Source of the DNA: Acarospora socialis
Lineage: Eukaryota > Ascomycota > Lecanoromycetes > Acarosporales > Acarosporaceae
Direction of reading: 5' to 3'
Assembly (NCBI GenBank): GCA_025617375.2
Contig: JAMYGW020000013.1
Coordinates: 914,196-978,195, forward strand
DNA length: 64,000 bases
A program made the translations under genes and the position numbers. Below, one piece after another: positions 35,805 through 64,000 of the stretch (the first letter of the stretch is position 1; every line of letters begins with the position of its first letter). The notes under the pieces are model-generated. The model worked only from the letters and a program-made list of their open reading frames with translations, ran no database searches and had not been told where the DNA came from.

Positions 35805-35999
35805 AATTGTTGACTCAATGTTGTCATTCTTCTGAGCTAATATCAACTTTCTTTCTCAAAATGTTGAAGTGTTCTCACACAGTTCTTAAGATTCTTCTTG
35901 AGCTTTCAGGTATTTTCTGAGATATTGTAATCTTTTTATTTTATGAGATAATGAGCTTTCTCACTAATCATTCTCTTTTCTAAAATGTTCTTGACTTCA

Positions 36000-39789: not shown

Positions 39790-40758
39790 CATCTGAGATC
39801 TGTTGCACTCTTGAACAAGATATTCAGATTTTCTGCAGTTGTAATACATTCACATTTTGTTTTGTGATGTTATCTGAGACTTAGTGAATTGCTCTGTTTG
39901 ACATTCAAACTCTATTTATCTAGTTTTTCATGACTTCTGACAGCACTTCTTGATCATATTGAGGTTCATAGAGTCTGTTTTTCTATGTCTTATTGATGAA
40001 ACATATCACTTCACTCATGATCAGAAGCTTTCTTCTTGATCTTCTATCATAGATGGCATTTAATATTCTTTTTGTTTCATTTGTCATTTTTATTGACAAC
40101 TATCAATGTTAATACTCAGATCAATCATTTTCTGAAGATTGTCTGATCATTTTGCTCTGACTATCTTGTCTTTAATGAACTTTCTCAACTCACAATAGTA
40201 CTGATAGATGAGTGCTTCATTATTTTATCTGATGAGTGTCACTAATTGTTGAAACTCTGTGATGTATACTGTTGCTGATTCACTCTGTCACAAGATGTGA
40301 ACTTGTCTCTCTGCTGCTCTCTCTTCATCAATTACTTCAAAGACTTTTTTGAGTTCTTTCTTGAACTTGCTGAAGTTGTTAAACATAGACTTCACATTGA
40401 TGTTGCATTCATCATAACTCTTTTCTAGAAACTCATGTAGCTTGAGATCAACTCAGTCAAAGACTGCATTCACTAGATAGATTGTTGTGAACAATGTCTT
40501 CTCTTGATTGATTTGAAACTTTGATTGATTGAATTCAATATACAGATTGAGCTTAGTCACAAAGACTTGCAGCTTTTCTCATTCTTCATCAAAGATATTG
40601 AGTATCTAAATCTTTGATGCATTCACAGATAGTTGTATTATCTGAGCTGACATCACTGATTGTGCTGTCATTCTATCTGAAGTAGATGATAAAGATGAGT
40701 TTGCTTGAGCTTGCTTCAAAAATAAGATTGAGACATTCTTCTGTGTGTCAGACATCAT
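39790..40758 (-). pseudogene. gag remnant of element C
   Basis: Starts MMSDTQKNVSILFLKQ at 40758, and a CCHC knuckle remnant lies near 39790-39850. Several stops are present. Confidence 0.7.
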
Positions 40759-40786
40759 ACTTGTTATATTGTAAGAATGTTCAAAG

Positions 40787-41147
40787 TGTAACATTCTAAT
40801 CTGAGATTTTCTGAGTATGTAAAACTAAGAGTTTGTGCTTGTTGATATAATAACTGGTCTGAAACAGTTCTGAACTTTAACTCTTAGATGGTTACTTAAG
40901 TTGAACATGATTGTTTTCATAAGAAAAACAACTCTACTATATAGAACATGCTTGACACTTCTGTGTTGAGTACTCTTGATGTCTTGATGTCTTAATATTG
41001 AGAAGTTGAGTTCTCAGCTTGTTCACTCATCATTAAGCTGTCACATCATCACATAACTACTGTTTAGCAGTTCTTTCTGTGCACACTTCAGACAAACTTC
41101 TGATCACAGACTCACAAGTTTCTTTTTTTCTGAGTATGGTTGTAACA
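40787..41147 (-). repeat. 5' LTR of element C
   Basis: 361 bp, reverse orientation, followed by the ATGTT target copy. Confidence 0.88.
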
Positions 41148-42289
41148 ATGTTGAACATTATCTTCTGTGAACTTTCAAGAATTGAGACTTTCACACAGAT
41201 TTTCTCATCAATTCTTTCAATGACTTCATTCATCATTCATATGTTGAATGAACAGCACACTCACTGTGTCTCTAATTCTAACATATCAATTGTTTTTTGA
41301 TTTATGATATTACTGTCTGCTCTGAAATTCATCAATGTGTTGATTTGATGTCTGTTAATTATGATCTTAATTCATATTCAATGATCATTGTTCTTTCTTT
41401 GAGATGTCACTAGCTTCTTATTCTCTAGTCTTGTCAAGAAAGCTCTTCATTTTTTGACTTCTTCAATCATTCAGCTTGTCTTCAAAGCTCTTAAAATCAT
41501 CTTGGTTCTTTTCTGATCATAAGATTCACATACTTTAGACTGTGTTGCTCAATGTGTCTTTTTGAGTGTAGTTAAAATTTATATTGATCATATTTCATCT
41601 GCAATTGACTCTCAATGACTTTTATTCTTTGCAGAAATTCAGATGATATATACTCTTCACTGAAGATTCATTTATCTTCATTCTGCATGATATATTCTTC
41701 AGGTAGACATATTTCAATTTTGTGACTCTTTGTTTTTTAAACAAGAGATTTAGACAATGTTGCATCATTGCTGCTGAGATATTCATCTTTAACAGCTGTC
41801 ATTAGCTTCTCTAGCTGATCATATGTCTTTTGTGTCTTTGCATTCTTGTGTTGTGTCACTTTTCTCTGAGCACTTAGATTCTTTTTGATCTTTGTTCAGT
41901 ACTTTTTCAAGAATTCTGTCTCAGCATTGTTCAAACTTTCTTCTGTGAGTTCATTGCTGTTGAGAAATATTCATGATTTGTCAATCTGAAATTCATGATT
42001 ATCAGTCTTTTTGATGTCATCTTTGAGAACATCTTCTTCTTTCTCAACATCAAGAACTCTTTTCTTGACATCAAGAACTCTTTTCTTGATAAGAATAGCT
42101 AATTCTTTGTAAGTTGATCAACTCTTCACATCATATCTGTTCTTCATGTTCTTGTACAGTTTCTGAGAATATTATCTGACTTCATCTTTTGTGCTTATGT
42201 GTACTCTGCACATGTCATTGTAACAGACTGTTCAGTTAAGAGTGTTGTGCACTATGTGTGTATTTTTCTTGACTGTCATCACAATATTT

Positions 42290-43263
42290 TTTCTTTTCAT
42301 TCAAGATCTGTTGCATTCTCAGACAAGATGTTCAGATTTTCTGCAGTTGTAACATGTTCACATTTCATTTTGTGATGTTATCTGAGACTTATTGAATCAC
42401 TCTGTCTGATGTTCAGACTCTGCTTGTTTAGTCTTTTATGACTTTTGATGATGCTTCTTGATCATATTGAGATTCATAGAGTTTGTCTTTCTATATCTTA
42501 TTGATGAAACATATCACTTTGCTCAAGATCAGAAGCTTTCTTCTTGATCTTTTATCATAGATAACATTCAATATTTTTTTTGTTTCATCTGTTGTTCTCA
42601 CTGACAACTATCAATATTGATGCTCAGATTAATCATTTCTTGAAGATTGTCTGATTGTTTTGCTCAAGCTATTTTGTCTTTGATGAACTTTCTCAACCTA
42701 CAATAATACTGATAGATGAGTGCTTTATCATTTTATCTGATGAGTGTCACTAACTACTGAAACTCTGTGATGTATACTGCTGCTGATTCACTCTGTCACA
42801 AGATGTAAACTTGTCTTTCTGCTGCTCTTTCTTCATTAATTACTCTGAAGACTTTCTTGAGTTTTTCTTTGAACTTGCTGAAGTCATTGAACATGAACTT
42901 CATGTCAGCATTGTATTTGTCATAACTTTTCTCTAGAAATTTGTGTAGCTTAAGATCAACTTAATTGAAGACTGCATTCACTAGATAGATTGTCACAAAC
43001 AATATTTTCTCTTGATTAATCTGAAACTTCAGTTGATTGAATTCAATATACAGATCAAGCTTAGTCACAAAGACTTGCAGCTTTTCTCATTCTTCATCAA
43101 AGATATTGAGTATCTGAATCTTTGATGCATTCATAAATAGTTGTATTATCTAAGCTGACATCACTAATTGTGTCATCATTCTATCTGAAGTAAATAATAA
43201 AGATGAGTTTGTCTGAACTTGTTTCAAGAACAAGATTGAGACATTCTTCTGTGTGTCAGACAT
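42290..43263 (-). pseudogene. gag remnant of element B
   Basis: Collinear with the gag of element C. The start lies at 43263 (MSDTQKNVS) and a zinc-knuckle remnant near 42300-42355. The frame is broken by stops. Confidence 0.7.
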
Positions 43264-43294
43264 TGTACTTGTTATATTGTAAGAGTGTTCAAAG

Positions 43295-43646
43295 TGTAAC
43301 ATTCTAACCTGAGATTTCTCAGGTATGTAGAGCTAAGAGTTTGTGCTTGTTGATATAACAGCTGATCTAAAATGGTTCTGGTCTTTAACTCTTAGATAGT
43401 TACTTAAGTTGAACATGATTCTTTTCATAAGAAAAATGACTGTGACTATATACTGAGTCTGCTTGTCAGTCTTGCTGTTGAGTCTGTCAAGATGACTCAT
43501 TCATGCAATCTGTTGAGCTTGCTCATCAAGCTCACTGTTAAGCATATCAAGATATTATGTGACTGCTGTCTAACATTTCTCAAATGTACACTCTTTCTGC
43601 ATACACATCAGTTTGCTTTAAGCTTCTTCTGACTTTGATTATAACA
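43295..43646 (-). repeat. 5' LTR of element B
   Basis: 352 bp, reverse orientation, followed by CATGT (43647-43651) and then by the resumed RT of element A. Confidence 0.85.
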
Positions 43647-43651
43647 CATGT

Positions 43652-45720
43652 GTGCAAGATATTAGTAAAGCTCAAGAAAAGAGCTTTGTACATAAAAAAG
43701 TCAAAAAGCAGATTTAAGATCAAGAAAGTCAAGTTTCTAAACTATGTAATTCAATCTGAACAAATCAAGAAGAATTTAAAGAAGACAGAAGCAGTCAGAA
43801 ACTGATTAACATCAAAATGAATCAAGAAAGTACAGATCTTTCTAGAATTAACAAACTATTATTGAAAGTTTGTATCAAGCTATGCAAGAATTGTGAAATC
43901 ACTGATGCATTTGACACACAAGAGCAAAGAATAGCACTGAAATCAAGAACAGAAAAATGCATTTCATGTATTAAAGAAAAGTCTTAGTGAAATGACACAT
44001 CTGAGAATACTCAACTCAGCATGCAAGAAAACACTGAAAACTGATGCTTCAGATTTTGCAGTGAGAACATGTCTATATTAGATCAAGAAAAGACAACAAA
44101 GATCTATAGTATATCAATCTAGAAAACTATTAGAACTCAAAGAAAAATATGAGATTCATAACAAGAAACTTCTTATAATAGTGAAAGCACTACAGAACTG
44201 AAGACTCTATCTTGTCAGAACAAGCAAGTCAATTTAGATCTATACAGATTACAAGAATTTGAGAAACTTTGCAATGACAAAACAACTCAATTAATGACAG
44301 ATTTGTTGAATGAAGCAGTTAGCAGATTATGAATTTCAAATTCATTACAAGAAGAATAATGAGAATAATGAAGCAAATGTCTTAAGTAGATGACTCAATC
44401 ATGAAGATATACAGATGATACATGCTGAAATTCTGAACAAAGATAACAAAGAAATTCTCATGAAGAACTTAGCAGCAATGTACAAGATGAAGCAAGTTCT
44501 CTTGATGAATAAAGAACTCATTAAGATGTGTCACTATAACAGAGTCAATGAACATCTAGAAATCAAGTGCACTGAAGATCTAGTGCAGAGAAAATGCAAT
44601 GTTAGTGATTTCAGAAATCAAGTCACTAAAATGATTGCTGTGTGTAACTCATGTCAAAGAAATAAGATCAACTAAGATAAACAATACAACAAAATAACAC
44701 AACTAGATGCATCAGATGCATCATGAGAGTTAGTTACTATGAACTTCATTATGAAGCTATTATTAGCAAAGAACTCAGCATGAGAAGTGAAGTTCAATAA
44801 TATATTGATCATAGTGAACAGATTGATCAAGTACATGATGTTCATTTCATTTCAGAAAACTGCAACAGCACTAGTATTGATGTACATTATACTGTGAAAA
44901 TTGATTAGCAATCATGAACTATCAAAGAAATTTATTATTGATAGAGACAAGCTGTTTATGAGCAAGTTTTGAAAGACACTCACAGCAGAACTCAGAATAA
45001 AACACAAGATATTAATGACATATCATCTACAGACAGACAGACAAAGCAAATGAATGAATTAAATGATAGAAATGTACTTGAGACACTATATCAACAAAAG
45101 TCAAGACAATTGAGTACAACTGTTGTCAACATCACAGTTCACATACAACAACACAAGAAATGAGATCACAGAAAAAATGTCTTTCTATGTGAATTATGAC
45201 TATAATCTGAAGATATAGCAAGATTTCAAAGAACATGAATCACAAAGTCAAAAAGTAATTTTAGATATCACTCAGATAAAGAAACTGCATCAAGATCTAA
45301 CAAGATGAATTGAACAGCAGATGAGACAAACAACAAAGACAAAATCATTTAAAAAGAAAGAAAAGATATATCTGAGAACAGACAACATATGAATCAAAGA
45401 AAAAAGCAAAAAACTGAAAAACAAGAGCATTGAATCATTCAAGATCATATGAAACATCAAAGAGTTAAGTTATGAGTTAAACTTACTCAAGAAAATGAGA
45501 ATACACTCAGTATTTCATGCATTCATGTTACAGCATTGCAATCAGTTCATATCACTTCAAATCACTGAAACATCTGTTAAACTCAAAAAAGAATACAAAG
45601 TTAAGAACATTTTAAAGAAGAAAATGATTAGTGAGAAAGTTCACTATCTCATAAAATGAAAAGATTACAATATCTCAGAAAATATCTGAAAACTCAAAGA
45701 AAGTCTCAAGAACTGCACAA
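43652..45720 (+). pseudogene. pol remnant of element A, second part
   Basis: Resumes exactly at the RT position lost at 31282 (CKILVKLKKRALYIKKSKSRFKIKKVKFL). RNase H (about 43960-44330), integrase HHCC (44415-44675: HYNRVNEHLEIKC, CNSCQRNK), integrase core (about 44720-45000) and a chromodomain-like tail (about 45480-45720) follow. Confidence 0.8.
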
Positions 45721-45789
45721 GAACACTTCAACATTTTAAAAAAAAAAGTTGACATTAGCTCAGAAGAATGACAATATTGAGTTAACAAG

Positions 45790-46194
45790 TTATAACATTG
45801 TTTGAGAATCTTCATTCTCAGTTTCATCATTATCACTATCAAGTTCAGCAGCAAAACAGTCAGTCTTTTGCACAGCATGACAATTTGTTTGATTCAGAGT
45901 TTTTTAAAAACACATTATCTTGACAGCAAGAGCATCAAGAACTGCATTTGCATCACTTATTTTCTTTTAAAGAGAAAGACAAGTTCTGTTGAGAAACTTT
46001 CACAAAACTGCAATGTACAGATGATTACAGCAAGTATACTTATTGCATTTTGATCTTTTATCAATCATAACAAAGCAATTGAGATCATAAGCAGTACAGA
46101 ATTCACAAGAAAACATAATGAAACTATCACTGAGCTGAATTTTCTTTGCAATTCTTAGACAATTGAAATTTTTAAAAAGCATCATTGCTGACAA
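45790..46194 (-). pseudogene. Cys-rich ORF antisense to element A (copy 3)
   Basis: Begins MSAMMLFKNFNCLRIAKKIQ at 46194 with the CEFCTAYDLNC..CNKYTCCNHLC pattern. Two of the cysteines shared with copy 2 are changed to tyrosine. Confidence 0.55.
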
Positions 46195-46260
46195 TAGAAA
46201 TTGTTATATACTCTTACTTAAATAAATTCTAGAGAACTAGCACCTGAAGAAGAAAAATGA

Positions 46261-46621
46261 TGTTATAATCATATTTAAAGAGAAAGAAACTCACAGATCT
46301 GTGATTAAGAGTTTACTTAGAGTGCATACAAAGAAAACTGCTAGACAGCAGTCATATAATGACATAATAGCTCAATGATGAGTAGACAAGCTGAAAACTC
46401 AATTTCTCAATATTAAGACATCAAGACATCAAGAGTACTCAATACAGAGATATTAAGCACATTCTATATAGTAGAGTTGTTTCTTTTATAAAAACAATCA
46501 TGTTCAACTTAAGTAATCATCTAAGAGTTAAAGATCAGAACTGTTTTAAACCAGCTGTTATATTCACAAGCATAAACTCTTAGTTCTACATACTCAAGAA
46601 AGCTCAGGTTAGAATATTACA
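46261..46621 (+). repeat. 3' LTR of element A (heavily mutated)
   Basis: 361 bp, alignable without gaps to 28036-28396. All CpG sites visible in the left copy are lost here. Confidence 0.88.
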
Positions 46622-46626
46622 CTTTA

Positions 46627-48109
46627 TTATTATCTTTTTCAAACTCTTCACTGCTGTTTTCAGAAACAGCTCTGTAGCTCAAATCATTATATTATAAATC
46701 TGAATAAAAAATCTCTTCACTTGCTTCAGAATCATCTCATAACAAGTATTCAAAAGTATCATGTTGAACTGACACTCATCATCTTTAATGACAGTGTAGT
46801 TGACTCAGAGCTCATGATGAAAATCTTTGATGTAGATGATGAAGATGAGTGAAAGTTGTATCTTTAAGAGTGTAAGCAAAACATCAAAATCTCTTGTTGC
46901 ACACTTAATCAGCTCATTCAGCATCATCTGAATCTTCACTTCACAAGCTTTAAGAACTGCAGCTTGATCTGTGCTTTGAAGACTTGTTTATTAGTTGAGT
47001 AACTCTTGCTCTTGAAATCAAGAATTGAGAAGATGAAAGTTAACTTGTGTTGCATGAGCACTATAATCAGTGTCAGTTCTTGCAGACCATCTCACTCACT
47101 CAATATTGTAATGTTCTGAAGCTTTTTGAGAAATTTCTGAGTCTTGATTTTAGTGTAGTTAAAACTTTGCAACAAGAGATAAAAGACAAGAGCAGAGATG
47201 AGAGCTGATTCTTTTATGTCTGTTGTAATGTTGAGATGAAGTATTTTGATTGAGAATGTCTTTTTGACTTTATTTAACTGAGATAACCTGTTGTCTAACA
47301 AAGCATCAAATGAGTTAATCTGAGAATTTTGAGAAAAAACATACAAATGGTTGACAGACTGCTGATGACACTTTGATGATGGTGAAGCTGAGACATCATC
47401 AATTTCTTGTTGCTCAACACTGCTCATGACATTAAAATCTGATAAGAAACTCAAATTTACATCTAACTGATGAATAGTTAACTTAAGCTTTCATCATCAG
47501 TCAGCTTTTTCACAAGAAATGAGATTGTTAGAGCTTATCTCTTCAGCAATAGTGTAAAAAGCATGAACAAAGTTATCTTCATCAGTCACAGCTGAAATCA
47601 TTTTCTTGTATTTCTTTCAGAACTTTTTGACTTTGTTGTGAAGAATAGTGTGATAATTCTTGAGAAACTTAACATTGACAATGTCATCAATAGCAGCTTA
47701 AATGTTGTCAGATGAATCAACATAAATATAAATATTAACATTCTTAAAATACTTATAGCAGTATGTTACAGTCAGAAGTCTGATAAACTAAACTCTGAGC
47801 TTGACAGACAGACTGTTAAGAACTGTGCATAAATGTACATTCAGAAAATGTACAACATAGTATAGAACTCAACAACTTAACAGATCAAGTGATCATCTCA
47901 ACAAATTTGATAGTCAAGTTGAGAAGTTAACTGATTAAGTGATTAACTTGATGTCTGAGAACATTGAGCTTTCTTATTATATAGATAGAATTGTTTTTTT
48001 TATGAAATTAATTATGTTCAACTTCAGTTATCATCTAAGAGTTAAATTCAGAATCTATTATATCATACAAATTATTATATCAACAAGCACAAACTCTTAA
48101 CTCTAACAG
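46627..48109. other. Mutated repeat remnants, unclassified
   Basis: AT-rich sequence with one 120-codon open frame on the - strand (47454-47092, MSFLSDFNVMSSVEQQEIDD...) that I cannot place. From about 47960 the sequence matches the 3' half of an LTR (ATCATCTAAGAGTTAAA, AACAAGCACAAACTCTTA), so a partial LTR ends near 48109. Confidence 0.4.
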
Positions 48110-49140
48110 TGTTACAACTATACTCAAGACTATGCAGAAAGAACATAGAAAGTAAACTGTTAAACAGCACTCATATGACATCTTAACATGCTTGATGATG
48201 AGCTTGATGAGTAAGCTTGATGAATTGCATAAATAAATCATCTCAATGAGCTTAACAGCAAGACTGACAAGCAGACTCACTATATAGTAGAATTGATTTT
48301 CTTAGAAAATTAATCATGTTCAACTTCAAGTTACAATTTAAGTGTTTACTCAGACAATTCTATTGAGAATCTTTATATCAACAAGCACAAATCTTAGTTC
48401 TACATTATTGAGAAAGCTCAGTACTAAAATATAATACTTTGAACATTTTTACAATATAAAGATGTTTACTCAACAGAGAAATGTCTTCTCTGCATTGCTT
48501 GCAGCAAGTTAGATTGAAGTCACTCAACAGACAGACATAACTATTGATATACTTAAGATTAAGACATCTGACAACTTCACTGAAGAGTATGAAAAGCTTT
48601 GATCATTTCTAGCTCAACTAGACTTGTATATTGACTTTAATGTACAAAAGTTTCTCAGCAACACAGAGAAGATTCTGTTTGCAGCATTTTATTTCAGAAA
48701 TATTATATTTGATTGAATAAATTCACTCATGAGAAAGTTCATCAATAAAACTTTCAAAAAGAAGCAAAAAAACATCAAGTTTATGTTCAACAGTTTCTTA
48801 AAATTCAAAGAGAAGATAAGAAAAATTTTTGAGATCATTGATGAGAAATAAGCAGCTAAACAATGCATCTGTATTTTACAACAAGATGAATTAATAGTAC
48901 AATATATGACAGAGTTTTAATGAATAGTGACATTAATAAAATGAGAAAACAATGCTTTAAGTTTCACATTCTATTGAGAATTAAAGAAGTTCATCAAAGA
49001 CAAAATTGTTAGAACTGAGTGATCTATCACTATGTGTAAACAGATCTTTAAAGGATCACAGTAAAAATTTAAGATTTTACTAGCAAAACTTAAAATTTCT
49101 GAATGAATTCATTCAACATGCACTAGTGAAAAAGCATGAG
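48110..49140 (+). mobile_element. Retrotransposon fragment E (LTR plus gag remnant)
   Basis: A TGTTAC-starting LTR of about 327 bp (48110-48436), deleted relative to the others, is followed by a gag remnant from 48462 (MFTQQRNVFSALL) that is homologous to but diverged from the other gags. It fades out near 49140 without pol. Confidence 0.65.
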
Positions 49141-50347
49141 TGAATGTTTCTCATCATTTGAAATGATTTGATTACTAAGCCCTTGATTTTACTATGTGTG
49201 CACAAGTATAAGGCAGTTCTAGCTCTTGTAATGTATTCAGGTAATTTATAAAAATAAATTACAACAATGTGATTTTGTGTAGGGTTAGGGCTAAAAATGA
49301 TAATTTAAGTGTAACATATTGTATTTTTGGTAATTTATTTCCAAGTGCACCGGGGAATTCAGGTGTTTGAGTTAGTAATGAGAAGTGTGAGTGTGATATG
49401 TAATATTCTGTGATGTAATATACAATTTTTATATACATTTATGTATAAAATCATCATTTTATATATAAAAACATATATATCAATCATTATATATATTAAT
49501 CATCAATATAATAGTTATAAGTAATGAAAAACACAATACATCATTATAATCATTGTTTTAACTGATATTAACTTTACAGACTACTTACTATCAATATAAT
49601 TTATATAATAAAACATATAAACAATAAATATATCACTTATCTTGATCACAGTCAAGATCAACAGTTAAAAATATATAATATTTATAATAAAAAGTTAAGT
49701 TTTCAATAATATTTATTATAAAATATATTATAAATGACTGTACACAATTCAATATATTGATTTATTGTTAGTGTTTATAATATTATTCATAATTTTATAT
49801 AGAAAATACATATAGTATTTAGTGTTAAAAAGTGCAGTGTTCTAGCTGCTTTCATAGTTTTAGTTGAAACTAACATCAGAAATTACTCATTATTCAGATA
49901 GTCTGTGTAACAGAGTATGTAAATAGACAATTTTTACAATCAACATTGATTACAGTCAAAATTAATAGTGTATGTTTCACTAAATAGACAGTTAGTCAGC
50001 AGTATAGCACAAGTATTCTTTTTATTTTTCAATAAATTATGAGCTCAGATTAGCAAGAAGCTTCTTAAAGAAAGTGCATACTGTTTTAATGTTTCAGCAG
50101 CTTGATATGAGAACTTAAAGATTGAGCAAAATAAACATTACTGATCATTGATACAGAGCTTTAAGATTGAGCAAAATGATATTCTCAACAGTTTAATACA
50201 GAATCAAAACAAACACTCTCAGCTGTCAATACAGAACTCAAAGATTGAGCAAAATGACATTCTCAACACTCAATATGAGACTTTAAGATTGAGCAAAACA
50301 AGACTTATTGACAACTTAATATGATGCTCAATAATTAAGCAAATAAA
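49141..50347. other. Extremely AT-rich island with degenerate tandem repeat
   Basis: 49420-50000 is almost pure A/T. From about 50095 to 50345, six or so degenerate copies of a roughly 45-55-bp unit containing AAGATTGAGCAAAA can be seen. A telomere-like TAGGGTTAGGG lies at 49280-49290. No coding potential. Confidence 0.5.
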
Positions 50348-50699
50348 TGTAATGTTCTAACCTGAGCTTTCTCAGATATGTAGAGCTAAAAGTTTATGCT
50401 TATTGATATAACAGCTGCTCTGAAATGGTTCTGGTCTTTAACTCTTAAATAGTTATTTAAGTTGAATATGATTTTTTTCATAAGAAAAATGATTGTGACT
50501 ATATACTGAGTCTGCTTGTCAATCTTGTCATTAAGTCTATTGAGATGACTTGTTCATGCAACTCATTGAGCTTGCTTGTCAAGCTCACTATTGAGCATAT
50601 TGAGATATCATGTGACTGCTGTCTAAATATTCTTCAAATATACATCTTCTGCATGTACACATCAGTTTATTTTAAGTTTATTTTGACTTAATTGTAACA
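50348..50699 (-). repeat. LTR of fragment D (B subfamily)
   Basis: 352 bp, the same length and middle sequence as the element B LTRs. Confidence 0.8.
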
Positions 50700-50778
50700 C
50701 TATTCTTTTCTTCTCAGATGCTAGTTTTCTAGAGTCTATATAAGTGAGAATATTCACATTGTTCACTGTCAGTGATGA

Positions 50779-51190
50779 TGCTTTCTAAAAATTTCAATTG
50801 TCTAAGAATTACAAAGAAAATTCAGATCAGTAGTGTGTCTGTTCTGTTTTCTTGTGACTATTGTGTTTGTTGTGACATCAACTGTTTTGTAATGAAATCT
50901 TGATTAAAATGTGATAAATATACTTGTCATGATCATTTGTGTGTCAATGTATTGTGAGAGTCTCTCAATAGAACTCATCTTTTGCTCTGAAAGAAAATCA
51001 GTAAAGTAAACAGTGAATTGACAGTTAAGCACACTGAACTTACTGCACTTTTCTTAAAAGTTGTACATCTTCAGAAAACACTGAATCAGATGAATCACTA
51101 TACTTTGCAAAAGACTGACTGTTTTGTTGTTGAACTTAATAGTGATAATAATGAAACTGAGAATGAAGATTCTCAAACAATATTGTAACT
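50779..51190 (+). pseudogene. Cys-rich ORF antisense to fragment D (copy 4)
   Basis: MMLSKNFNCLRITKKIQ, then CDYCVCCDINCF, closest to the copy in element B; broken by stops. Confidence 0.5.
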
Positions 51191-53038
51191 TGTTAACTCA
51201 ATGTTCTTCTTCTTTTGAATTAATATTGACTTTTTTTCTCAAAATGTTGAAGTGTTCTCACACAGTTCTTGAGATTCTCTCTGAGTTTTCAGATATTTTC
51301 TGAGATATTGTAATCTTTTCATTTTATAAAATAGTGAACTTCTTCACTAATCATTCTCTTCTTTAAAATGTTCTTGACTTCATATTCTTCTTTGAGTTTG
51401 ACAGATGTTTCAGTGATTTGAAGTGATATGAACTGATTGCAATGCTGTAACATGAATGCATAAAATACTGAATGTATTCTCATTTTCTTGAACAAGTCTA
51501 GCTCATAACTTAGTTCTTTGATGTTTCATATGATTTTGAATGATTTAATGCTCTTGTTCTTTAGCTTCTTGCTTTTTTCTTTGATTCATATGTTGTTCAT
51601 TCTCAGATATATTTTCTCTTCTTCTTCAAATAATTTTGTCTTTATTATCTGTTCTGTCTGCTGTTCAATTCATTTTGTTAGATTTTGATGTAGTTTCTTC
51701 ATCTGAGTGATATTCAAAATCACTTTTTAATTTTGTGATTCATGTTTGCTAGAATCTTTTCATACTTCTAAATTATAGTCATAGTTCATATAGAAAGATG
51801 TTTCTCTTGTGATTTTGTTTCTTGCATTATTGTATGCAAACTGTGTCATTAATAACAGTTGTACTCAGTCATTTTGACTTTTGTTGATATAGTGTCTCAA
51901 GTACATCTCTACTGTTTAATTCATCTGTTTGCTTTGCTTGTTCATCTGTGAGTGATATGCTGTCAACATCTTGTGTTTTATTATGAGTTCTGCTGTAAGT
52001 ATTTTTCAAAACTTGCTTGAAAACAGCTTGTCTCTGTCAGTAATAAACTCTTTTAATAGTTCATGATTGCTAATCAGTTTCTGCAGTATGATGTATGTCA
52101 ATATTGATGCTGTTGTGATTTCTTTGAATGAAATGAACATCATGTACTTGATTAATCTGTTCACTATAATCAATATGCTATCAAATTTCACTTTTCATGC
52201 TGAGTTCTTTGACAGTGATAGCTTTGTAATAAAGTTCATGATAACTGACTTTCATGATGCATCTAATGCATTTAATTATGTTATTTTGTTGTATTGTTTA
52301 TTTTAATTAATCTTATTTCTTCAGCATGAGTCACACACAGCAATCATTTTGATGACTTAATTTCTAAAATTGCTAATGTTGTGTCTTCTTTGCACTAGAT
52401 TCTCAGTGCACTTCATTTCTAGATGTTCACTGATTTTGTTATAGTGACATATTTTAATAAGTTCTTTGTTCATCAAGAAAGCTTACTTTATCTTATACAT
52501 TGCTGCTAAGTTCTTCATAAAGACTTCTTTGTTGTCTTTACTTAGAATTTTAACATATATTGTCTGTACATCTTTGTGATCAGATTGTCTACTTAAGATA
52601 TTCACTTCATCATTCTCATTATTCTTCTTGTAATGAATCTGAAATTCATAATCTGTTAACTGCTCTGTTCAATGAATCTGTTGTTGATTGAGTTGCTTCA
52701 TTATTGCAAAGTTTCTCAAGTTCTTGTGATCTGTGTAGATCTGAATTGACTTGCTCATTTTTGCAAGATAAAATCTTCAGTCTTGTAGTGCTTTCACTAT
52801 TGCAAGAAGTTTCTTATCATGAATCTCATATCTTTTCTTGAATTCTGATAGTTTTCTAAATTGATATGTTATGAGTTTTTGTTGTTCATTCTCAATCTAA
52901 TATAGACATGTTTTTACTGCAAAATTTGAAGCATCAGTTTTCAGTGTTTTCTTGTATACTGAGTTGAGTATTCTCAGATGTGCTGTTTTACTAAAACTTT
53001 TCTTTAATATGTAAAATGCATTCTTCTGTTCTTTGGGG

Positions 53039-53134
53039 TTAGGGTTAGGGTTAGGGTTAGGGTTAGGGTTAGGGTTAGGGTTAGGGTTAGGGTTAGGGTT
53101 AGGGTTAGGGTTAGGGTTAGGGTTAGGGTTAGGG
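53039..53134 (+). repeat. Telomeric repeat array, 16 x TTAGGG, at an interstitial position
   Basis: Sixteen perfect TTAGGG units (96 bp) without variants. The G-rich strand runs left to right, the orientation of a right-hand chromosome end for the DNA to its left. The left neighbour is retrotransposon D, cut mid-gene. The right neighbour is intron sequence of the MTHFR gene. Open frames reading (PN)n here come only from the repeat. Confidence 0.97.
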
Positions 53135-53151
53135 TAACATTCTGATATCAG

Positions 53152-55118
53152 GGTGTTCAAAATCTCTACGATCGTGAGTTCAGCCCATTCGAACGAGTTG
53201 ACTTCTGCCCTTCTGTATCCTAACGTCTTATACAGGTATGGATCGCATGCACGGACTTGGACCAGCATTCATAGACATCACTTGGGGGGCGGGTGGACGG
53301 CTGTCTCATCTGACCTGCGAGATGGTTAATGTCGCTCAGACCGTCTACGGCCTCGAGACTTGTATGCACTTGACTTGCACTGATATGGAAAAGTCTAAGG
53401 TGGACGATGCACTGAGGGAAGCATACAAAGCTGGCTGTACTAATATCCTTGCGCTTAGAGGTGATCCTCCGAGAGAGACAGAAAAATGGGTGGCAACAGA
53501 AGGTGGCTTCCGGTACGCAAAAGACCTGGTAAAGTATATCAAGGAACAGTATGGTGATCACTTCGATATCGGCGTTGCCGGATATCCTGAAGGCTGTGAC
53601 GACCAGCAGGACCCCGAAATCCTGATGCAACACCTTAAGGAGAAGATCGACGCTGGCGGAACCTTTGTGGTCACCCAAATGTTCTACGACGTGGATAACT
53701 TCTTGGCGTGGGTGGACAAGTGCCGTAAGCGTGGCATAACTGTACCCATCGTCCCCGGCATCATGCCTATCCAGACGCATGCGGCGTTTCTGAGAAGGGC
53801 GAATTGGTCTCATTGTCGCATTCCACCAAAGTGGACAGAAGCCTTAGAACCAGTGAAGAATGACGATGCCGCTGTCAGGGAGGTTGGAAAAGGGCTTGTG
53901 GCCGAAATGTGTCAGAAGATCATCGACGCGGGGATCATGCAATTACACTTGTAAGTGCTCTCTTCACGTTCCAGTATGGCCGTAGCTGAGGATGCCTAGT
54001 TATACAATGAACCTCGCGCAAGCGACGCGCATGGTGCTGGATGAACTCGGCCTTATTTCTTCCGAAGGGACCCCTTCGAAGAAGCCTCTGCCTTGGAGGC
54101 AGTCGCTGGGGCTGCACCGGCGGGATGAGGACGTCCGGCCTATCTTCTGGAAGAACCGAAACAAGTCATACGTAGTTCGAACTCAAGACTGGGACGAGTT
54201 TCCGAACGGCCGATGGGGAGACGCAAGGTCGCCAGCCTTTGGAGAACTGGATGCGTATGGTATAGGTCTCAAGGGCACAAACGAGCAAAACATCAAACTG
54301 TGGGGCCAGCCCCGGTCAGTGAGGGACGTTGCTGGCATCTTCATTAGATTCCTTCAAAAAGATCTCGAAAGCTTACCTTGGAGTGAATCACCTATCACCG
54401 GTGAATCCGACGTTATCAAACCACAGTTGATCGACATCAATCGTCGTGGCTTACTGACAATCAACTCCCAACCTGCAGTCAATGGAATGAAGTCATCCGA
54501 TCCCACATATGGCTGGGGTCCGCCAAACGGATACGTATATCAAAAGGCATATCTGGAGCTCCTCATCTCTCCGGATATCATACCAGAGTTGATTGCACGG
54601 ATCAACCGGCAGCCAGAGCTAACCTTCTACGCCGTCAACAAGCAGGGCGATTTGAAGACAAATGCTCCGGGAGATGGACCCAACGCAGTGACTTGGGGGG
54701 TTTTTCCAGGTAAGGAAATCGTGCAACCCACGATCGTGGAGACCATCAGCTTCCTCGCATGGAAGGATGAGGCATACCGACTAGGGGATGACTGGGCGCG
54801 CTGCCACCCCAGTTTGAGTCCGAGCCGACGCCTTATTGAGCACATTATGGGAACATGGTATCTTGTAAATATCGGTAAGGCCTTTTAAACCAGTGTGCTC
54901 TATGCTGTGAGCAAATTGACTCAATCCTCGCAGTCAACAATGATTTTCACGAAACTCACAACATATTCTCCTTGTTCGACGGCTTAGAAGTGAAGGACAT
55001 AGATAAGCCATATCCCTCCGAAACAGCCATCAACGGTACTCACGCAATCACCGATCGGACACATAACGGGGTGAACGGCACGCAATCAAATGGGATACCC
55101 GCTTCGGTCTCCCACTGA
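53152..55118 (+). CDS. Methylenetetrahydrofolate reductase, 5' end lost at the telomeric array
   Basis: Exons visible: 53152-53173, 53236-53950, 54000-54874 and 54934-55118. The splices rebuild [43 protein letters not shown] and VNI-VNNDFHETHN. The N-terminal TIM-barrel domain binds FAD and folate (ITWGAGG, LRGDPP, TQMFYD, PGIMPI). The C-terminal domain is the eukaryotic regulatory type (FPNGRWGDARSPAFGELDAYG; ending NNDFHETHNIFSLF). The enzyme reduces methylene-THF to methyl-THF for methionine synthesis. The first exon, which should hold the FEFFPPK motif with the catalytic Glu, is absent; the sequence before 53152 is an intron end (CTGATATCAG) and then TTAGGG. An internal ATG at 53238 could start a shortened protein, but without the catalytic Glu it should be inactive. 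Confidence 0.9.
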
Positions 55119-56808
55119 GTACCTAACCAGCTCGATTTCCCTCCCCCCGCCGGTTCAATCTATTTCAACATACACAAAAGCGTTCTGGTGGTAGAGCATA
55201 ATCTGTTGCGGCAAGCCCAACAGCTTGGGTGTTTGAGAGATCCTTCAACGGTCTCGGGTACGGCGTTCAAGGCAATCAGAATCTTCCTTTGCATCGCGGC
55301 AGGCGTCATCAACTCGACGACTTATGGCGGCATGATTGACGCAGCGTATTAGGCTCTGGTCGCGGGGCCTAAACTTTCTTGCGTAGAGGAACCTTCAACG
55401 GTGTCCACAACATAGCGTTTTGTTCGAAGAAGGACCACCACTCTTATAACCTTGATTGCCTTAGTCTTTAGATTTGAGTTGTAGTAGCGTGACAGGACGG
55501 GTGGGCCACTGCTTAGGAAGAATAGACGCTCTACTATGTACACACTTGGATGTTATTGGTTGAATGGTGACTTGCTCTGTGCTGGACGAGGATGTGCTGT
55601 ATAGAACCTTGGCTGGTTCTCCAGAAGCTCAATTATTTTCTCTGGGTGTGCTAAGAGGAAGCAAGGGTCAAACGGTTACCTAACTACGGAATACTGGGTA
55701 GGCTTGGCTCCAGGTGGTTCGGAGACGGAGGGTGCTGACTTTAGGCCGAAACTCTTATCCAATTCTTGCCTGCCCAGTCAAGCCTCTTGGGCCTTTAGCA
55801 CTGAGCGGACTAGACTTCCTCCCACTTCGAACGATAATCCAAAGGAAACTTAGAGGATAACAAAACGCGGTAAAAGCGAACGACCACATCTTGTTAGACG
55901 AACTCTGTATACATACACAGTAGTACCTACTCTCCTTCGTACTGTATGTAGGGTCCCGGAAGCCTTGCACCAGCTGCACCCAACCCAGCCCGCTTCACGC
56001 TGGCACGTTGCACACCTCCGCCCCCACGCTTTCCAGGTGGTCTGTTCTTTCGGGTCCGTGGGACTTTCATCCCAGCTTTCTCCACACTTTTGGCACCTTC
56101 GTGATACAATCATTGAGTCCATGCTGGATCGCCAGTCACTGTCGCCATCGCCGCCCATTCCATACGTGTGACGAGAAGATTCAGTCACTCGAGTCAACCC
56201 CACAATCCTGCACGAGATTATTCTGGGAATATGCTTATGCCTGACTAATTAAGGAATCTATCTACCTACCTTACTCGTGCTGTACTCTGCATCATCAAAC
56301 ATCAGTTGCACTACAGGAACGATCGCTTGGCACCAGCATAGTGCATTGCACGCTCCGAGGAAGGGTGCCACAGTTACGTCTTTAGGAGAGGTTCCCAATG
56401 TCTTTTTGAAAAGCCATCGTCATCCTCTTGGCTGTTGATACGTCTCGGGGAAGCTCAAGCTACATACATCCTGTCGTGGCACGGCGGATAATTTCCCTTG
56501 TACGACTCTTTGCGACAGCCCAGCTATTCGTCCTATCTTTGCAGTCTCCTACGTACGTTCAAGAATCATCTCCACCAACGAGACACCTCTGATGATGCCT
56601 TATCTAACAGATTGTGCATCTTCTCAGCTCGGAGCCCTTGCTCGCGATCCTAAAATTCCTACCTTTGCCACCTCCCGTGCTTCACCGGTCGCTTTTCGAC
56701 TACACAGCCAGATCAATGTACATTTACATGTCATTGTCGAAGCAACTCCCTGTACATCATCTTAGGATTGAATTAAGTGGTGGCACATACTAGGAGGAGG
56801 ATGTGGTG
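55119..56808. other. Long intergenic spacer
   Basis: 1.7 kb without a recognisable gene. The right half is probably the promoter and leader of the regulator starting at 56809. Confidence 0.5.
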
Positions 56809-59800
56809 ATGGGCTCGCAAATGGCGCCTGTGCAGACAGTGGACAAAGGCGCTCATCCGATTGCCGCTCCGCGGGAGGAAAGGCGCATACCATTCCGTAC
56901 AGAGAACCATGAACATGCTTCGGAGGAGAGGGGTCGGAGTCGAAAGCGCCGGCGAGGCGGAGACGACCGTGAACGTCGCAACGATGAGGAAGGAAACAAC
57001 AGCGGGACTGTAGAGGGTTCGCCAACCGGCGGCACACCACGTAAAAGAAGGAGGAGTAGGAAAGGGCTCGATAAGAAATTTGACTGTCCTCACGAAAATT
57101 GCGGCAAGAGTTATTCCAGAGCTGAGCATCTCTATCGGCACCAGCTGAACCGTAAGCATTACGGGCATGATATTTGTCAAGCGGTGCTGACCCTATTGCA
57201 GATTCGCCCAAGACACTCTACTATTGTGATTTCCCTGACTGCAGTCGGGTTTTTGTACGCCAAGATCTCTGTACTCGCCACCGTGACCGGCACACTGCTC
57301 GAGGCTCGCAATTGCAGAGGAAAGACGTCTTTCCACAGCCTGCCAGCATGCGTTCACCGCCATCTAATGTTGGGGCGAAGCGTGCAAGCATCTCGGCAGC
57401 GGCACCTGGCGAGCGGAGTTTCAACGTCGATATGACTACTATCCCGAACCGGAAAAATAGCGCGCCAGATCAACCAAATGCACATCCCGCTCCAGCACCT
57501 CGACGTGTCGCCAGCGGCAGCTCTGTAACCTCGTCCATGACACCCGTTGCAACAGGCTTATCTGATGCTCCTGCAGCCATCGACCCTCAATTGCAGTCCG
57601 GCTCCCAATACGTTCATGAGCATTCTTCTATCGTACCTATACCATTACACAGATCGAGTAGTGATGGGAATTATCGCACAGAACCCGCAATACGAAGCTA
57701 TGATTCTCCTGGGAGTTCACGAACTGTGTCTGTGGGGACGTTGAATGAGATGCAGCGCCACGCCAGTTTTGGATCTATCGATGCAGTACGCTATGCCACA
57801 CCCGCCAATGACCGGGTCGACTTTACCCGTCCACCGCAGCAGACCCCACTCGGGCCTCCAAGCAGTCGCTCTGTGCCGCAGCCAGCGTCCTATAACCACG
57901 TTGTGCCGCAAGCATACGCCGGGCAACAGGGAGCCGGCATGCCTGGTAGTTCTCATGGTACTTATATGGCACATCATCATTTTCCACCCTTGTCGAGTTT
58001 GCCGCCGCCTGGGTTTCCGACAATGAGCCAGACAACATCATCGGCGCTCTCCGACTCCAATTTTGCAACCTCACCTCCCACGAGCTTGAGCTCAATAGAC
58101 CAAACTCCTGGACTTCCTATCAACCGCCCGGTCTCAGAAGCTAGCTTGATGGATCAAATGGCTGGTTCATACACCATGCCAGTCTTTGGCGGAGAAGGTT
58201 ATAATCGGTCTCCTTTCGCGATGGCCGATGACTTTACAGCATGGCTGTTCAATGACCCTCACTTCGGCAATGGCGCGTCAGCGGGACGACAAGCGATGTC
58301 AGGTACAGTCCCAGGTTTCGTCGACGGTTCCGGCGCCCAGTTTCAAGCCGCCTTTTTCCAGAGCCCCATTTCAGTGGACACAAGTCACATTCCTGCTATA
58401 CCGGCACAACACCCCATGGCCGTCACCAGTATCGTCGATACCAGCCCGCCTGAAACAATTCTATCCGAAGAAAAGCGACAAGAGCTGCTTTATCTCATCG
58501 AGATGCGATTTAATGAAACCAGCCATGCACCGGTGATGAAGAATAAGGCATCCTTATTGGAAGGTGATCGAGATGAAGATAGCCATGTTCTTAGTCTACG
58601 GATGATGCAAAAGTATATTGCATCTTACTGGTGTAACTTTCACCCGCAAATGCCGATACTGCATAAGCCCACTTTTGCTGCGGACAAAGCGCAGAACCTG
58701 CTCTTGATCGCCATCATGACCCTGGGCGCGTCCAGCCTCAACAAGCCGCATGGCATTCCTTTGACTCAAGCGTGTTCAGAACTGGCCAACTTTCTGGCCT
58801 GGCATTTGAGATGGGAGGTCTTCATGGACAGCGACTTCAGCCCGCCTGCAAAGCTATGGATCTTCCAGACCTTGTTGTTGCTCGAGATCTACGAAAAGAT
58901 GTACTCTACCCGTGCGCTACATGAGCGCGCCCATATCCACCACGCCACTACACTCACTTTGATGCGAAGAGGAAGCTCCTTGCTCGGAAGATCTGCGCTT
59001 GACTCACCTCCAAGCGTCCGTGACGACAAACATGGCCATTCAGCGAACAGTTCCAGCCACGCTTCGGGTACCACGACGCCCGACGAATGGTGGAATCATT
59101 GGATCATCAACGAGGAGACTCGAAGAGCGGCATTCGCGGCATTCGTTATAGATTCAATTCACGCCACTATGTTCGGACATTCGGCGGTCATGGTAGCTCA
59201 CGAGATGCGGCTACCTTTGCCTTGTGACGAGGCGTTGTGGTCCGCAACGAGCAGCGCAGAGGTGGGCAGGGTCGAGTCAAATCTGCATAACAATGGCATC
59301 AAGCCAACAACATTCCTCGACGGGTTGAAGAAGACTCTGAACGGGCAAAATGTGCGAACGAACTCATTTGGACGCACTATCTTAATGTCCGGCCTCCTCA
59401 GCGTAAGCTGGCACATGAACCAGCGAGATCTGCAAATCCACACCCTCGGCGTCATGCAAACTCTCGGTGGTCGGGATAGATGGCGAGGCCCATTGACGCG
59501 TGCCTTCGACGTCTGGCGTCGTGACTTCGACGAGACGCTGGCCCAGTCTCCGCAAGCCGTCCAACAGCTCAACCCGACCCCATACACTTTCTCCACCAAG
59601 ATGGACGAGGAGAACATCTTTGAGAGCCGCACGGTTCTCCACCATCTCGCGCACATGGCCATGCACGTCGACATCGTCGACTGCCAGATCTTCGCCCGTG
59701 CCAACCGTCTCCTCGGCCGCAGCATCACGCCGCAAGACTACAACGGCGCGCAGCGCCGCATGAAAGCCGCTTGGGCCCCAACCGCCCGGGCTCGCGACGC

Positions 59801-60254
59801 CACCTTCTACGCCCTGCGCTTCCTCTCCCACGTTCTGATCATCGACGAAGGCTTCGCATACGACCAGCGGCCCACAGGAACAGCTGTCATATCCACCGTG
59901 GGTGGTGGTCTCGAATACTCCGCCCGCGACGACTCCCTTCTCCACCGACCTTGGGTGCTCTACTTCGCCGCGCTCATCGTCTGGTCATACGGCTACGCCC
60001 TCGACGGTCCCATCTCGCCGCCCGTCTCCGATCTCAAGACGTCGGCGCAAATGGTCGCCGACATGCGTCGCTTCCTGGAGCGGACAGCGAGCTTGATGAC
60101 CCCGGACGATTTGTCTTCTTTCCACGGAAAGAACGAGTGCTTGGGCGTGTTGATGGTGCTAAGAGAGACGTTCCGGAAAACTCGGTGGGAATTATTGCAT
60201 GAGGCGGCCAATTTGTTGACCAACTGTGTGGAGTTATTGACGGGAACTGTCTGA
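56809..60254 (+). CDS. C2H2 / fungal_trans transcription factor
   Basis: Two exons, join(56809..57151,57202..60254), about 1,131 aa. The start is the ATG at 56809 (MGSQMAPV); the frame is open further up but only from GTG. The 50-bp intron joins HLYRHQLN to H-SPKTLYYCDFPDC and so completes the first finger. Finger 1 is FDCPHENCGKSYSRAEHLYRH (first Cys about residue 93) and finger 2 is YCDFPDCSRVFVRQDLCTRHRDRH. A basic stretch (RSRKRRRGGDDRER, RKRRRSRKG) precedes them. A long Ser/Pro/Gln-rich region follows, then a fungal_trans-type helical domain from about residue 530 (YWCNFHPQMPILHKPTF; WNHWIINEETRRAAFAAFVIDS). The combination is typical of ascomycete nuclear regulators. The target is unknown; the frame is intact. 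Confidence 0.9.
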
Positions 60255-61861
60255 TTAACATGCTCGTCACTTTGATCGAATTGGACCGAATTGGACTGGG
60301 GTCTTGGACGGACTTTGTGCGGTGGTATACGGTGGACATCTCTATCCTAGTTTATCTGCGGGTTGGAATTCGTGCGGCGTTCATTTGGGGTGGGGTCTTT
60401 GTTGTCTGTAATGAGGGATGGCAGCGTGTTTTTCGTATATACCATGGTTGGTGTCGTTGTTAATGTAGGAATACTCGTTACTGGGAGGCGGGACGTTTGC
60501 TATGGATGTAGGTAGCTGTAGTACGGAGTATGTTATGTATATGCCAGATGTTGTCAATGATGTGACAATGTGCGAGCCTTTGAGCTGTGTAATTTGATCA
60601 GTGCCCTTCATGGGACGACTTTTTCTTATGCCACATCACTCTTGCACTGCGCATTGTGTGTCACCATCATAACATCGAGCTGTCTGCAGTATATACAACG
60701 CTCGAACTATTCCCGTCGAGGCTCCATAACCTACCTTATCACGACGAGCACCGTATTCCGTTGGCAGTTGCATCCGAGATCCATACTCGTACATCCGTGC
60801 AAAGTCGAATTTGCTCAAGCATTCAGGCATTCGCATCGTCGGATCGTTCAACTGTTCCAGCACATACCTATTCCCAGTATCGTATCGACGCATCGCGGTG
60901 ACGATACTGACTTCCCACGGAGTAGATCGACTCTGAACAAGCTAGAAGTGTCCCTCCTCTCCTCTGCCCTCAAAACCATCCTCTCGCAGCCCTCGGCGTA
61001 TAAGCTTCGAACGAAAATGCCGAACACGTACGGCCTCCCCGGTCTCACCAAACCCAACCTACCTAACCCAACCTCTCTTCTTTCTTCCTTTCTTTCTTCT
61101 GCCAAGATTTCGTCCTCGTAACAAATCAAGTAAGCTAAGCCAACAAGCAGCTGAACCCCTCGCTCCCACCCCAGCCCTGCTATTATTATTTTCGTGTGCG
61201 CTCTTTCCATCGTTGTGGTTACGGAGCTGCAGGTGGTTAGACGTAAGCCACATAAGCTTAATCACGCTGTGGCGGCGTGGGCTGGTCCAATGAGGAGTGT
61301 TGTTCTTTGAGGCTAACTCCGAACTAGACAGCTGTCAGCCCGTTTGGGGCGGTGGTTCGTTTAGTAGTACGGATTCCTCTGGGTAAGTAGGATGCTGGAA
61401 GGTTTGTTTACGGATTTTGGTGGTGAGGAGCGTGCGTTTGGTGAGGTAAGGCTGAGGAGAGCGAGTGGCTGTAGGTAGTACGGAGTATCTACCTAAGGTA
61501 CGGCGTAGTTGTAGGGGAGCTGCGCTAGAAGGGGCTGGGTTACGAGGGAGCTGGCTGGGATGCGGTGGTGAGGTGATGTTGTTGTTGGAGTTGGGATATA
61601 AGTACTCGAGCGTCTTACTCCGTATGATGGTGTTTTTGGTTGCTGAGAACAGGTGCTCTAGTGTACTTGTATAATCTATCGTCTCTTGCTTCGTCCCCTC
61701 TTTCATAGTTGAAAGGATTGTTGTATATAGTGCTATTCACCTACTCGTCCTTGCACTCGCTCATCTTTCCTCTCGCTCACGCTCACGCTCACGCTCATAC
61801 ACCCTCACTTCTTCATCCAACTCGCTCGCTCAACAGTAATAACAACAAGACCGCCAACACA
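60255..61861. other. Long intergenic spacer with TACGGAGTA motifs
   Basis: 1.6 kb without a convincing gene. TACGGAGTA occurs at 60522-60530 and 61479-61487 and its reverse complement at 61616-61624. A 183-codon open frame (60570-61121) has no motif and low-complexity ends, so it is not called. Confidence 0.5.
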
Positions 61862-62684
61862 ATGAAGTCCATTACTTTCTCCCTCCCCCTCTCCTTCCTC
61901 TTCGCTACCACTTCCGTCCTCGCGCAGTCGGACATGGTCCCCATGCCAGCATGTCTCGTAAGTGCTCTTCCCCCCTTCTCTCCATCACCATACACCCGCC
62001 TCTAAGTCCGTATTAACAAATCCCAACAGACAACCTGTTTGCGCACCCAAGCCAGCGGCTCCTGCACGCCGAACTTCATCGCTGACGTCAACGCTTGTAT
62101 ACCGACGACGTGCGCGCCCAAAGACCAGACTTGTATGTTTCCCCTTCCTCCCTGGTCCCCCTTTCTTTGACCATCTCGCCTGCCATGTCCTTGCTGGGTT
62201 TTGTTGGGGCCATTGCTGATGAGACTTCGACGGTAAAGACGTCCGAGCCTATTTCAATTCTTACTGCACGGCGGACAATAAGTCCAACGCAACGGCCTCC
62301 GTGATTACGCCTGTCGTTCCTTCCACCTCCTCTTTGGTGACGATCATCGGTACCGGGACGGTGGCATCGACAGCCTATCCGACGGCGTATCCGACAGCCT
62401 ATCCAACGGCTGGTGCATCGTCGGGGACGGGAGGCGCTGTTGCGAACGGGAACGGAACGGTGATGAATTCGAATCTGACGTCGACGGCGTATCCGACAGC
62501 CTATCCAACGGCTGGTGCATCGTCGGGGACGGGAGGCGCTGTTGCGAACGGGAACGGAACGGTGGTGAATTCGAATCCGACGCCGACGGCGCCAGTATTC
62601 GAGGGTGCGGCAGTGACGAGCGGTAGGGCGGGATGGTGGTTTGGGACGGGCATTGTGGGGCTAGCGGTTTTGTTGACATTGTAG
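61862..62684 (+). CDS. Secreted, probably GPI-anchored Cys-rich protein with internal repeats
   Basis: Three exons, join(61862..61957,62030..62132,62239..62684), 214 aa. Signal peptide MKSITFSLPLSFLFATTSVLA (1-21). Six cysteines (PACLTTC, GSC, NAC, TTC, SYC) lie in residues 31-85 in a CFEM-like arrangement, but the CLC core of true CFEM domains is missing. A Ser/Thr/Gly/Asn-rich stalk contains two copies of a 34-residue unit (TAYPTAYPTAGASSGTGGA...). The C-terminus is hydrophobic (FGTGIVGLAVLLTL), as expected for a GPI-anchor signal. The likely location is the cell wall or plasma membrane surface. The second intron (106 bp) is the least certain splice. Confidence 0.75.
62381..62584 (+). repeat. 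Two-copy 102-bp coding tandem repeat
   Basis: GACGGCGTATCCGACAGCCT starts at 62381 and again at 62483. The two units are nearly identical (34 codons, in frame) and differ mainly in the last ten codons. Confidence 0.85.
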
Positions 62685-64000
62685 GAGTATGGGTATGTTG
62701 GTGATGGTGATAATGAGGGTACGGGAGTACAGTAATGCATTGGAGACGGAGTTGGTGGTTTGAGAGACTGGTTCTTCGGGCTAAGGACCTTGGTTGACGC
62801 ATGACATAAGAATTAGACGTAAATAGATGAGCTAATAAATAATATCACATCATGAAGTTCAGCAAAATCCAGCAAACGTGGGATGTGTGCATTGTCGCCA
62901 CTGCGCTTGCACGGATGTGTGATGCTTTGTCAATAACCGGCTCCAGACGTCGATGTAAGTGGTGTCAAAGATGGAAAGAAATCGAGCACCTTGAGATGAC
63001 GAGACTGCCTTGATTAGCCTTCAATTAAGTCAGTGAGCAAGTGCCTAAATATTCTAACACGAGTTGTCCAACTTATGCCCTCTTTGGGAGTACTGACCAT
63101 CACCACTCTCAGACCACCGGGTTCGAAGCTGTCAGCAATTCAATAAATTGGGTATAGATGAATATCTTCCTGTTGGCTGGAAAGCCTGAGGCTGATCTGT
63201 TTGCAAATCTGCCGTAAGAGTGTTGTATTTTGCAACGGTCACATCCAGGGCCAGAAGATACCGAAAGGAGTCGTTGATGAAGCTACTCTCTTGCAAGCTG
63301 ACGCCCTTGACGATCCACCTAGCACCGGCACTGGCGAGGGTTCAGATGGATTGAGTAGCTTAAGCCAACCATTTGACATGTGAGAAGCGCCGGTAGAGTA
63401 CAACCTCGAGAGAGCAGCCTGTCTGGAACGCGGCTGGACCGTCTACACTAGGAAAGACTAGACAGTACTGAATAGAAGAAATAATGAGGCTCTGGATAAT
63501 GGCAAATCAGACACGAAATGTTGCACGACAGAATGAAATGGCCCAAGAACGAATGGCTTCCAGGTCCAGACTTGAGCGAAATGGAAATCTAACAGAACTT
63601 TGTAGATCATCAGGCTCAGGCCCAGCGATCCATCAATCATATTGTAGTAATCGAGAGCCTCAGAAACTTCGATGTAATGTTTGACACAGACACCTGGAGA
63701 TTTTCACAGCAGCTTGTCGATCACCAGAGCCTGAAGCGTGTGTTTAAGCCTAACGGCCCAGGGGCAGAGTGTAGATCGTCGCCCTCTTCGGGAGATAATA
63801 CTGTCCCAATTCTGCGGTAGATGTCTTGATCACTGGACGCATGAATCAAGGGCCGGCGACTTGTCCGCTTTTATTCCGTTCTCAGGCAGTGAGGCAGTGA
63901 AAGGCGAATGGATCGGGCATCGAAGGTAGCATTGAGGGTTCACAGCCAGTGAATGACAGTCAACCCCTGTCAGAAGAGTCCCGTCATTCCTCGTTTAATC
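62685..64000. other. Terminal spacer
   Basis: No gene I can support. Several 60-codon open frames on both strands lack motifs and overlap each other. A gene reaching in from beyond the right edge cannot be excluded. Confidence 0.45.

Follow-up and report, generated by a model that had tools for sequence, protein, structure and literature searches.

The window, by which we mean the whole stretch of 64,000 nucleotides analysed here (C13:914196-978195, C13 being contig JAMYGW020000013.1 of the Acarospora socialis assembly), comprises the last 64 kb of a contig of 978,195 bases. It holds, from left to right, a polyketide synthase gene (15113-20503), which is of the non-reducing type as judged by its domains (SAT, KS, AT and two ACP), a long AT-rich block of decayed repeats that ends in the relic of a retroelement, an array of TTAGGG units, and a further segment bearing an incomplete MTHFR gene and an open reading frame with a transcription factor domain (Table 1). 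The first-pass annotation, made from the letters of the window, had placed the array in the middle of the sequence. This holds for the window, but not for the contig: because the window's right edge is the last base of C13, the array lies 10.9 kb from the contig's end. Contig ends are named below by contig and side, so that C13R denotes the right-hand end of C13.

Table 1. Features around the TTAGGG array (window positions)
Feature	Position	Strand	Remark
AT-rich subtelomeric block of decayed repeats	28300..53035		GC in 1-kb steps; left edge approximate
Gypsy-like LTR retroelement relic, RNase H then integrase zinc-binding region	51900..53035	-	Pfam; cut in RNase H by the array
Telomere of the C13 right-hand end	53036..53135	+	16 perfect TTAGGG units at 53039-53134
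Join between array and tail	53134..53135		1 bp (T at 53135) common to array and C7 sequence; no insert
Post-telomeric tail, 10,866 bp	53135..64000	+	0 mismatches, 0 gaps against C7:293398-304263
MTHFR gene without exon 1	53152..54888	+	MTHFR and MTHFR_C domains; first base of the small exon placed by eye
Copied open frame, 1,027 aa, fungal-specific transcription factor domain	57171..60254	+	Pfam; inside the tail

The array and its two flanks

The sixteen perfect units (96 bp) can be read directly from the window, and Tandem Repeats Finder reports a perfect period-6 tract of 16.7 copies with 100% matches and a score of 200, which confirms the earlier description of a complete, telomere-sized array. 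A chance origin is excluded, since at 50% GC a given 96-mer is expected at any one position with a probability of about 10^-58. TTAGGG points outwards on the plus strand, in agreement with the other 12 right-hand arrays of the assembly, and the array is thus indeed oriented as a genuine right-hand end would be for the polyketide synthase side. The array is a single uninterrupted tract running in one direction; it is not head-to-head, as had also been noted from the letters, and a fusion of two telomeres is thereby ruled out.

The block to the left of the array has a GC content of about 31% and is nearly devoid of CpG, CpC and GpG. Within 24.5 kb of it (28500-53030), we counted 1 CpG, 26 CpC and 49 GpG, with CpA (1911) and CpT (1881) being common and TpA being low (observed/expected 0.58; TpA/ApT 0.65). 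This decay looks as if C had been lost where G or C followed it, unlike the usual CpA-type RIP. Because the block lacks the signature of classical CpA-to-TpA RIP (TpA/ApT 0.65), we abandoned the idea of dating the duplicate by it. The same dinucleotide loss is seen at C1L (1,394 bp with 0 CG and 1 CC), and C7L fits the pattern less well (9,860 bp with 65 CG and 75 CC). A mutation context of CpG plus CpC in fungi was not named in the literature searched, at the level of titles and abstract openings.

At its inner edge the array meets a retroelement. With stops read as X, the minus strand of 51900-53038 matches the Pfam families RT_RNaseH (1.3e-19), RT_RNaseH_2 (1.3e-15) and Integrase_H2C2 (1.4e-6), an arrangement, RNase H followed by the H2C2 domain, that is typical of gypsy-type elements. 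Members of the family are scattered over many contigs, with 40 matches scoring at least 87% out of 326 first-look candidates. All 10 of the other copies compared continue past the point where the C13R copy meets the array, and the earlier statement that the element is cut inside RNase H therefore stands. We set 23 telomere flanks (C6R and C12R left out, the window's own flank included) against ten element loci and the AT-rich block of the window, and eight of these flanks matched the family or the block: C3R, C4L, C4R, C7L, C8L, C8R, C13R and C14R. The seams between element and telomere lie at differing points and in both orientations, C4L being opposite to C13R and C8R, and such scatter would be expected if telomeres had been added to ends left by chance breaks. 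What is real at the right end of C13 is biologically modest: a telomere placed straight onto a broken member of a dispersed family.

At the left end of C13 (L021 190-600), a GC-rich, minisatellite-like sequence lies directly inside the telomere, most other ends compared being AT-rich; in the left subtelomere of C9 (L048 796-900), the telomere grades into long TTTGAC repeats interleaved with CCCTGA units, forming a telomere-like variant array.

On the outer side of the array, the tail agrees with C7 at 10,866 of 10,866 bases, and a base-by-base walk gave the same limits. No telomere was found at its outer end, where window position 64000 is the last base of C13. The gene with which the tail begins matches the Pfam families MTHFR (3e-95) and MTHFR_C (1.9e-85). 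As the first-pass annotation had it, the gene is cut inside an intron: the join falls within intron 1 of MTHFR, judged against the C7 copy with splice sites placed by eye. The C7 gene itself is uninterrupted, with exon 1 and its start codon (exon limits by eye) ahead of the intron within which the C13 copy starts. An intact MTHFR gene elsewhere had been named beforehand as one of two signs of misassembly, and it is this gene on C7. In the assembly as a whole, MTHFR matches occur at three places, namely on C13, on C7 with an equal score, and on C9 in a differing copy. We found no telomere-like seed at the C7 source, the 60 kb examined there containing no tract of even two units. On the reading proposed below, the MTHFR fragment is a bystander.

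Telomere arrays and tails in the assembly

We took a census of arrays with at least four perfect units over the 38 contigs (31.1 Mb) of the assembly. Searching with a four-unit pattern yielded 254 matches in forward and 235 in reverse orientation, and these belong to 25 arrays, at C1L, C1R, C2L, C2R, C3L, C3R, C4L, C4R, C5L, C6R, C7L, C8L, C8R, C9L, C9R, C10R, C11L, C11R, C12L, C12R, C13L, C13R, C14R, C18L and C34R. The unit numbers of these arrays sum exactly to the two match counts, the 24 units of C6R being implied by its start and the end of the contig as well as by the remainder of the count. As the matches are fully covered by the 25 arrays, every array of at least four perfect units in the sequence searched is located less than 11 kb from a contig end.

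Sixteen of the arrays are flush with the contig end, and the remaining nine have a tail of 0.47-10.9 kb on their outside (Table 2). Every tail reaches the end of its contig, and at none of the nine tailed ends was a second array (of at least four units) found outside the first one. The longest perfect runs comprise 18-25 units in flush arrays (C6R included, with its run derived as above) and 19-42 in the other tailed arrays, as against 16 full units at C13R, which is the shortest of the 25. C13L, which we counted as flush, carries 56 bases ahead of its CCCTAA array (L021 1-56), consisting of about 50 G followed by AGATA; this G-rich leader is probably technical.

Table 2. Tailed arrays and the matches of their tails
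End	Tail length (kb)	Match	Identical bases	Bases common to array and source
C1L	~3.47	C38 (taken as mitochondrial)	100% over 1,480 of ~3,470	1
C4L	5.68	C12	1,678 of 1,680 compared, of 5,680	2
C9L	0.66	C38 (taken as mitochondrial)	100% over ~250	1
C12L	0.47	C38 (taken as mitochondrial)	100% over ~250	0
C1R	6.42	C4	250 of 250 compared	1
C3R	5.03	C11	250 of 250 compared	0
C8R	4.27
C10R	4.43	C4	4,432 of 4,432, whole length	2
C13R	10.87	C7	10,866 of 10,866, whole length	1

Five tails match nuclear interiors and four are mitochondrial. The comparison covered the whole length of the C13R and C10R tails and part of the length of the other seven; the source loci of C4L and C1L are on the other strand. 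At C8R, no exact source was found in the assembly, the first 250-base probe matching only itself, and 3,001 of the 4,273 bases of this tail match C15 and C33 at 95% (best). It contains two open frames under translation table 4, matching Proton_antipo_M (8.9e-56) and Oxidored_q4 (complex I chain 3; 1.2e-26), and the tail is, by this predicted content, mitochondrial.

The overlaps between array and source were counted at eight of the nine joins, all but C8R, with the counts for C4L and C1L allowing for an irregular last unit. They total 8 bases, compared with 5.3 expected by chance (P of 8 or more, 0.20). Joining driven by homology was rejected for these joins, the overlap of 0-2 bp per join being no greater than chance. 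Eight of the nine joins were examined and are base-tight, and there are no Ns at the C13R join.

Origin of the sequence beyond the array

We propose, with a probability of about 0.95, that the sequence represents the native right telomere of C13 followed by a tail which would stem from a chimeric molecule, read or join. The window up to position 53135 would accordingly be the true end of the right arm of C13, an AT-rich subtelomere of decayed retroelements with the TTAGGG cap placed directly on it; the sequence and orientation of the array are established, and telomerase would have added it to a broken copy of the element. The part from 53135 to 64000 would not be contiguous with C13 in the living genome, and this second copy of the C7 interior would exist in the assembly only. 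The gene beyond the array would thus almost certainly be a stray DNA copy from another chromosome, joined by a sequencing or assembly error. Weighing against this proposal are the shortness of the C13R array, the absence of an exact C8R match in the assembly and the occurrence of long interstitial arrays in some fungi.

As to how such a tail could arise, a chromosome end might act as a natural blunt stop for reads. In library preparation or sequencing, this end may have become randomly joined to a different molecule, or two molecules may have been read as one. Elsewhere in the genome, genuine spanning reads would outnumber and override chimeras; as no true read should exist past a telomere, the assembler might there extend the contig along the chimera. 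Random fusion combined with a greedy assembler is suggested by the fact that the copies are perfect, the partners are one-off and unrelated, much of the DNA is mitochondrial, the joins lack homology, and the tails are read-like in length, end without a telomere and occur only outside telomeres. Mitochondrial DNA is abundant in extracts and would be favored by random joining. From the letters alone, a wrong join made by the assembler and a chimeric molecule give the same picture.

The C13R array resembles native fungal TTAGGG telomeres in being a perfect repeat with the G-rich strand outwards and AT-rich decayed repeats inside, and differs from them in that the assembly continues beyond it with 10.9 kb from another chromosome. 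Artefacts of the latter kind have been described: sections of one report present HiFi chimeras without homology at the breakpoints, none of eight tested being confirmed by PCR, and ascribe them to random blunt-end ligation, for which a 2018 preprint on PacBio blunt-end ligation is cited there (PMC13288022), and sections of another present false contigs arising from single chimeric reads, as well as an assembler that fused contigs at telomeric repeats (PMC7500977). The likeness to these cases, as far as those sections go, lies in the exact copy of an unrelated locus, the homology-free join, the one-off partners and the frequent mitochondrial DNA; the difference is that our tails, known here from the assembly, are confined to the outside of telomeres, 9 of the 25 arrays having one. 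Tails beyond telomeres or interstitial telomeres of this pattern were not found at telomeres in the literature searched, at the level of titles and abstract openings.

Of the three possibilities raised by the first-pass annotation, a false assembly join is the one in line with the proposed reading. A recent biological event, be it a subtelomere fused to a broken locus or telomere capture during break repair, is not supported: the C7 locus is unbroken, the tail is a perfect copy ending without a telomere, and unrelated tails occur on eight other telomeres, four of the nine tails being mitochondrial. A real event could still be imagined in which an uncapped C13 telomere copied the C7 segment by break-induced replication (BIR), or was joined to it, with the outcome that a recent segmental duplication adjoins a telomere that has become interstitial. 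The perfect 10.9-kb copy is oriented as an extension of the chromosome end; Pyricularia strains are known to carry long interstitial arrays flanked by subtelomeric repeats, in the account given by parts of PMC8381367, and breakage and BIR at such arrays are described in parts of PMC7367193. However, BIR starting from C7:293398 should run on for about 1.7 Mb to the end of C7 and gain its telomere, and the copy stops at the end of C13 without one; moreover, the C13R join lacks homology (1 bp), there are zero sequence differences between the two copies, and the event would need independent repeats at 9 of 25 ends, four of them with mitochondrial DNA. We thus regard such an event as very improbable. 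The Pyricularia tracts do share with C13R a telomere-length TTAGGG array with sequence on both sides, but, in the parts of these papers that describe them (PMC7367193, PMC8381367), they lie between subtelomeric repeats or elements, whereas at C13R one interior locus makes up the outer side, and no telomere closes the contig. According to those same parts, internal tracts of more than 4 units are extremely rare in P. oryzae, strain US71 having eight, of 6-34 units (PMC8381367), and 19 of 24 telomere healing events used seeds of 1-4 bases (PMC7367193). Equally little credence can be given to the idea that chromosome ends truly capture nuclear and mitochondrial fragments without homology, a third of these ends bearing such DNA on the outer side of the telomere; were the tails genuine, capture of this kind at telomeres would be recorded directly in them.

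A mistake of the assembler or scaffolder alone, in which two correct contigs were abutted without any chimeric molecule, is unlikely, even though Flye has been seen to fuse contigs at telomeric repeats. The case presented in sections of PMC7500977 left 100 Ns, which are absent from C13R, the joins at 8 of 9 ends being base-tight; in addition, the tail duplicates sequence that C7 already contains and has the size of a read, and a chimeric read would account for this more readily than an abutted contig. It is, finally, barely conceivable that a telomere-seeking retroelement, similar to the MoTeR elements of Pyricularia, internalised telomere repeats. A retroelement does abut the array, and the C8R and C4L flanks belong to the same family, yet the element is on the centromere side of the array, in the place of an ordinary subtelomere, and beyond the array there is single-locus C7 DNA with no element. 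The family is, furthermore, dispersed on many contigs, its telomere seams lie at varied points, and its orientation is not constant, that of C4L being the reverse of C13R and C8R.

Reading C13R as a native telomere with a false tail would remove a false rearrangement, together with a false duplication and truncation of MTHFR, from the Acarospora socialis genome. It also offers a simple check for long-read assemblies, namely to trim contigs at the outer edge of the terminal array and to search for identical second copies of the sequence beyond it; in the present assembly such trimming would affect 9 of the 25 arrays.

Putative mitochondrial contigs

As the C1L and C12L source loci on C38 are AT-rich and contain tRNA genes, we infer that C38 is the mitochondrial genome. 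It may be incomplete, since the complex I genes of the C8R tail (C8:1928701-1932263, L066) are nearly absent from it, with one 51-base match. More than one mitochondrial genome seems to be present, which might point to a second organism or mitotype, or else to an incomplete C38. C38 has 67.8 kb, and C15, of 247.5 kb, contains two copies of a unit about 131 kb apart, which are 87-99% like C38 where compared. Mitochondria-like matches also occur on C16 and C33.
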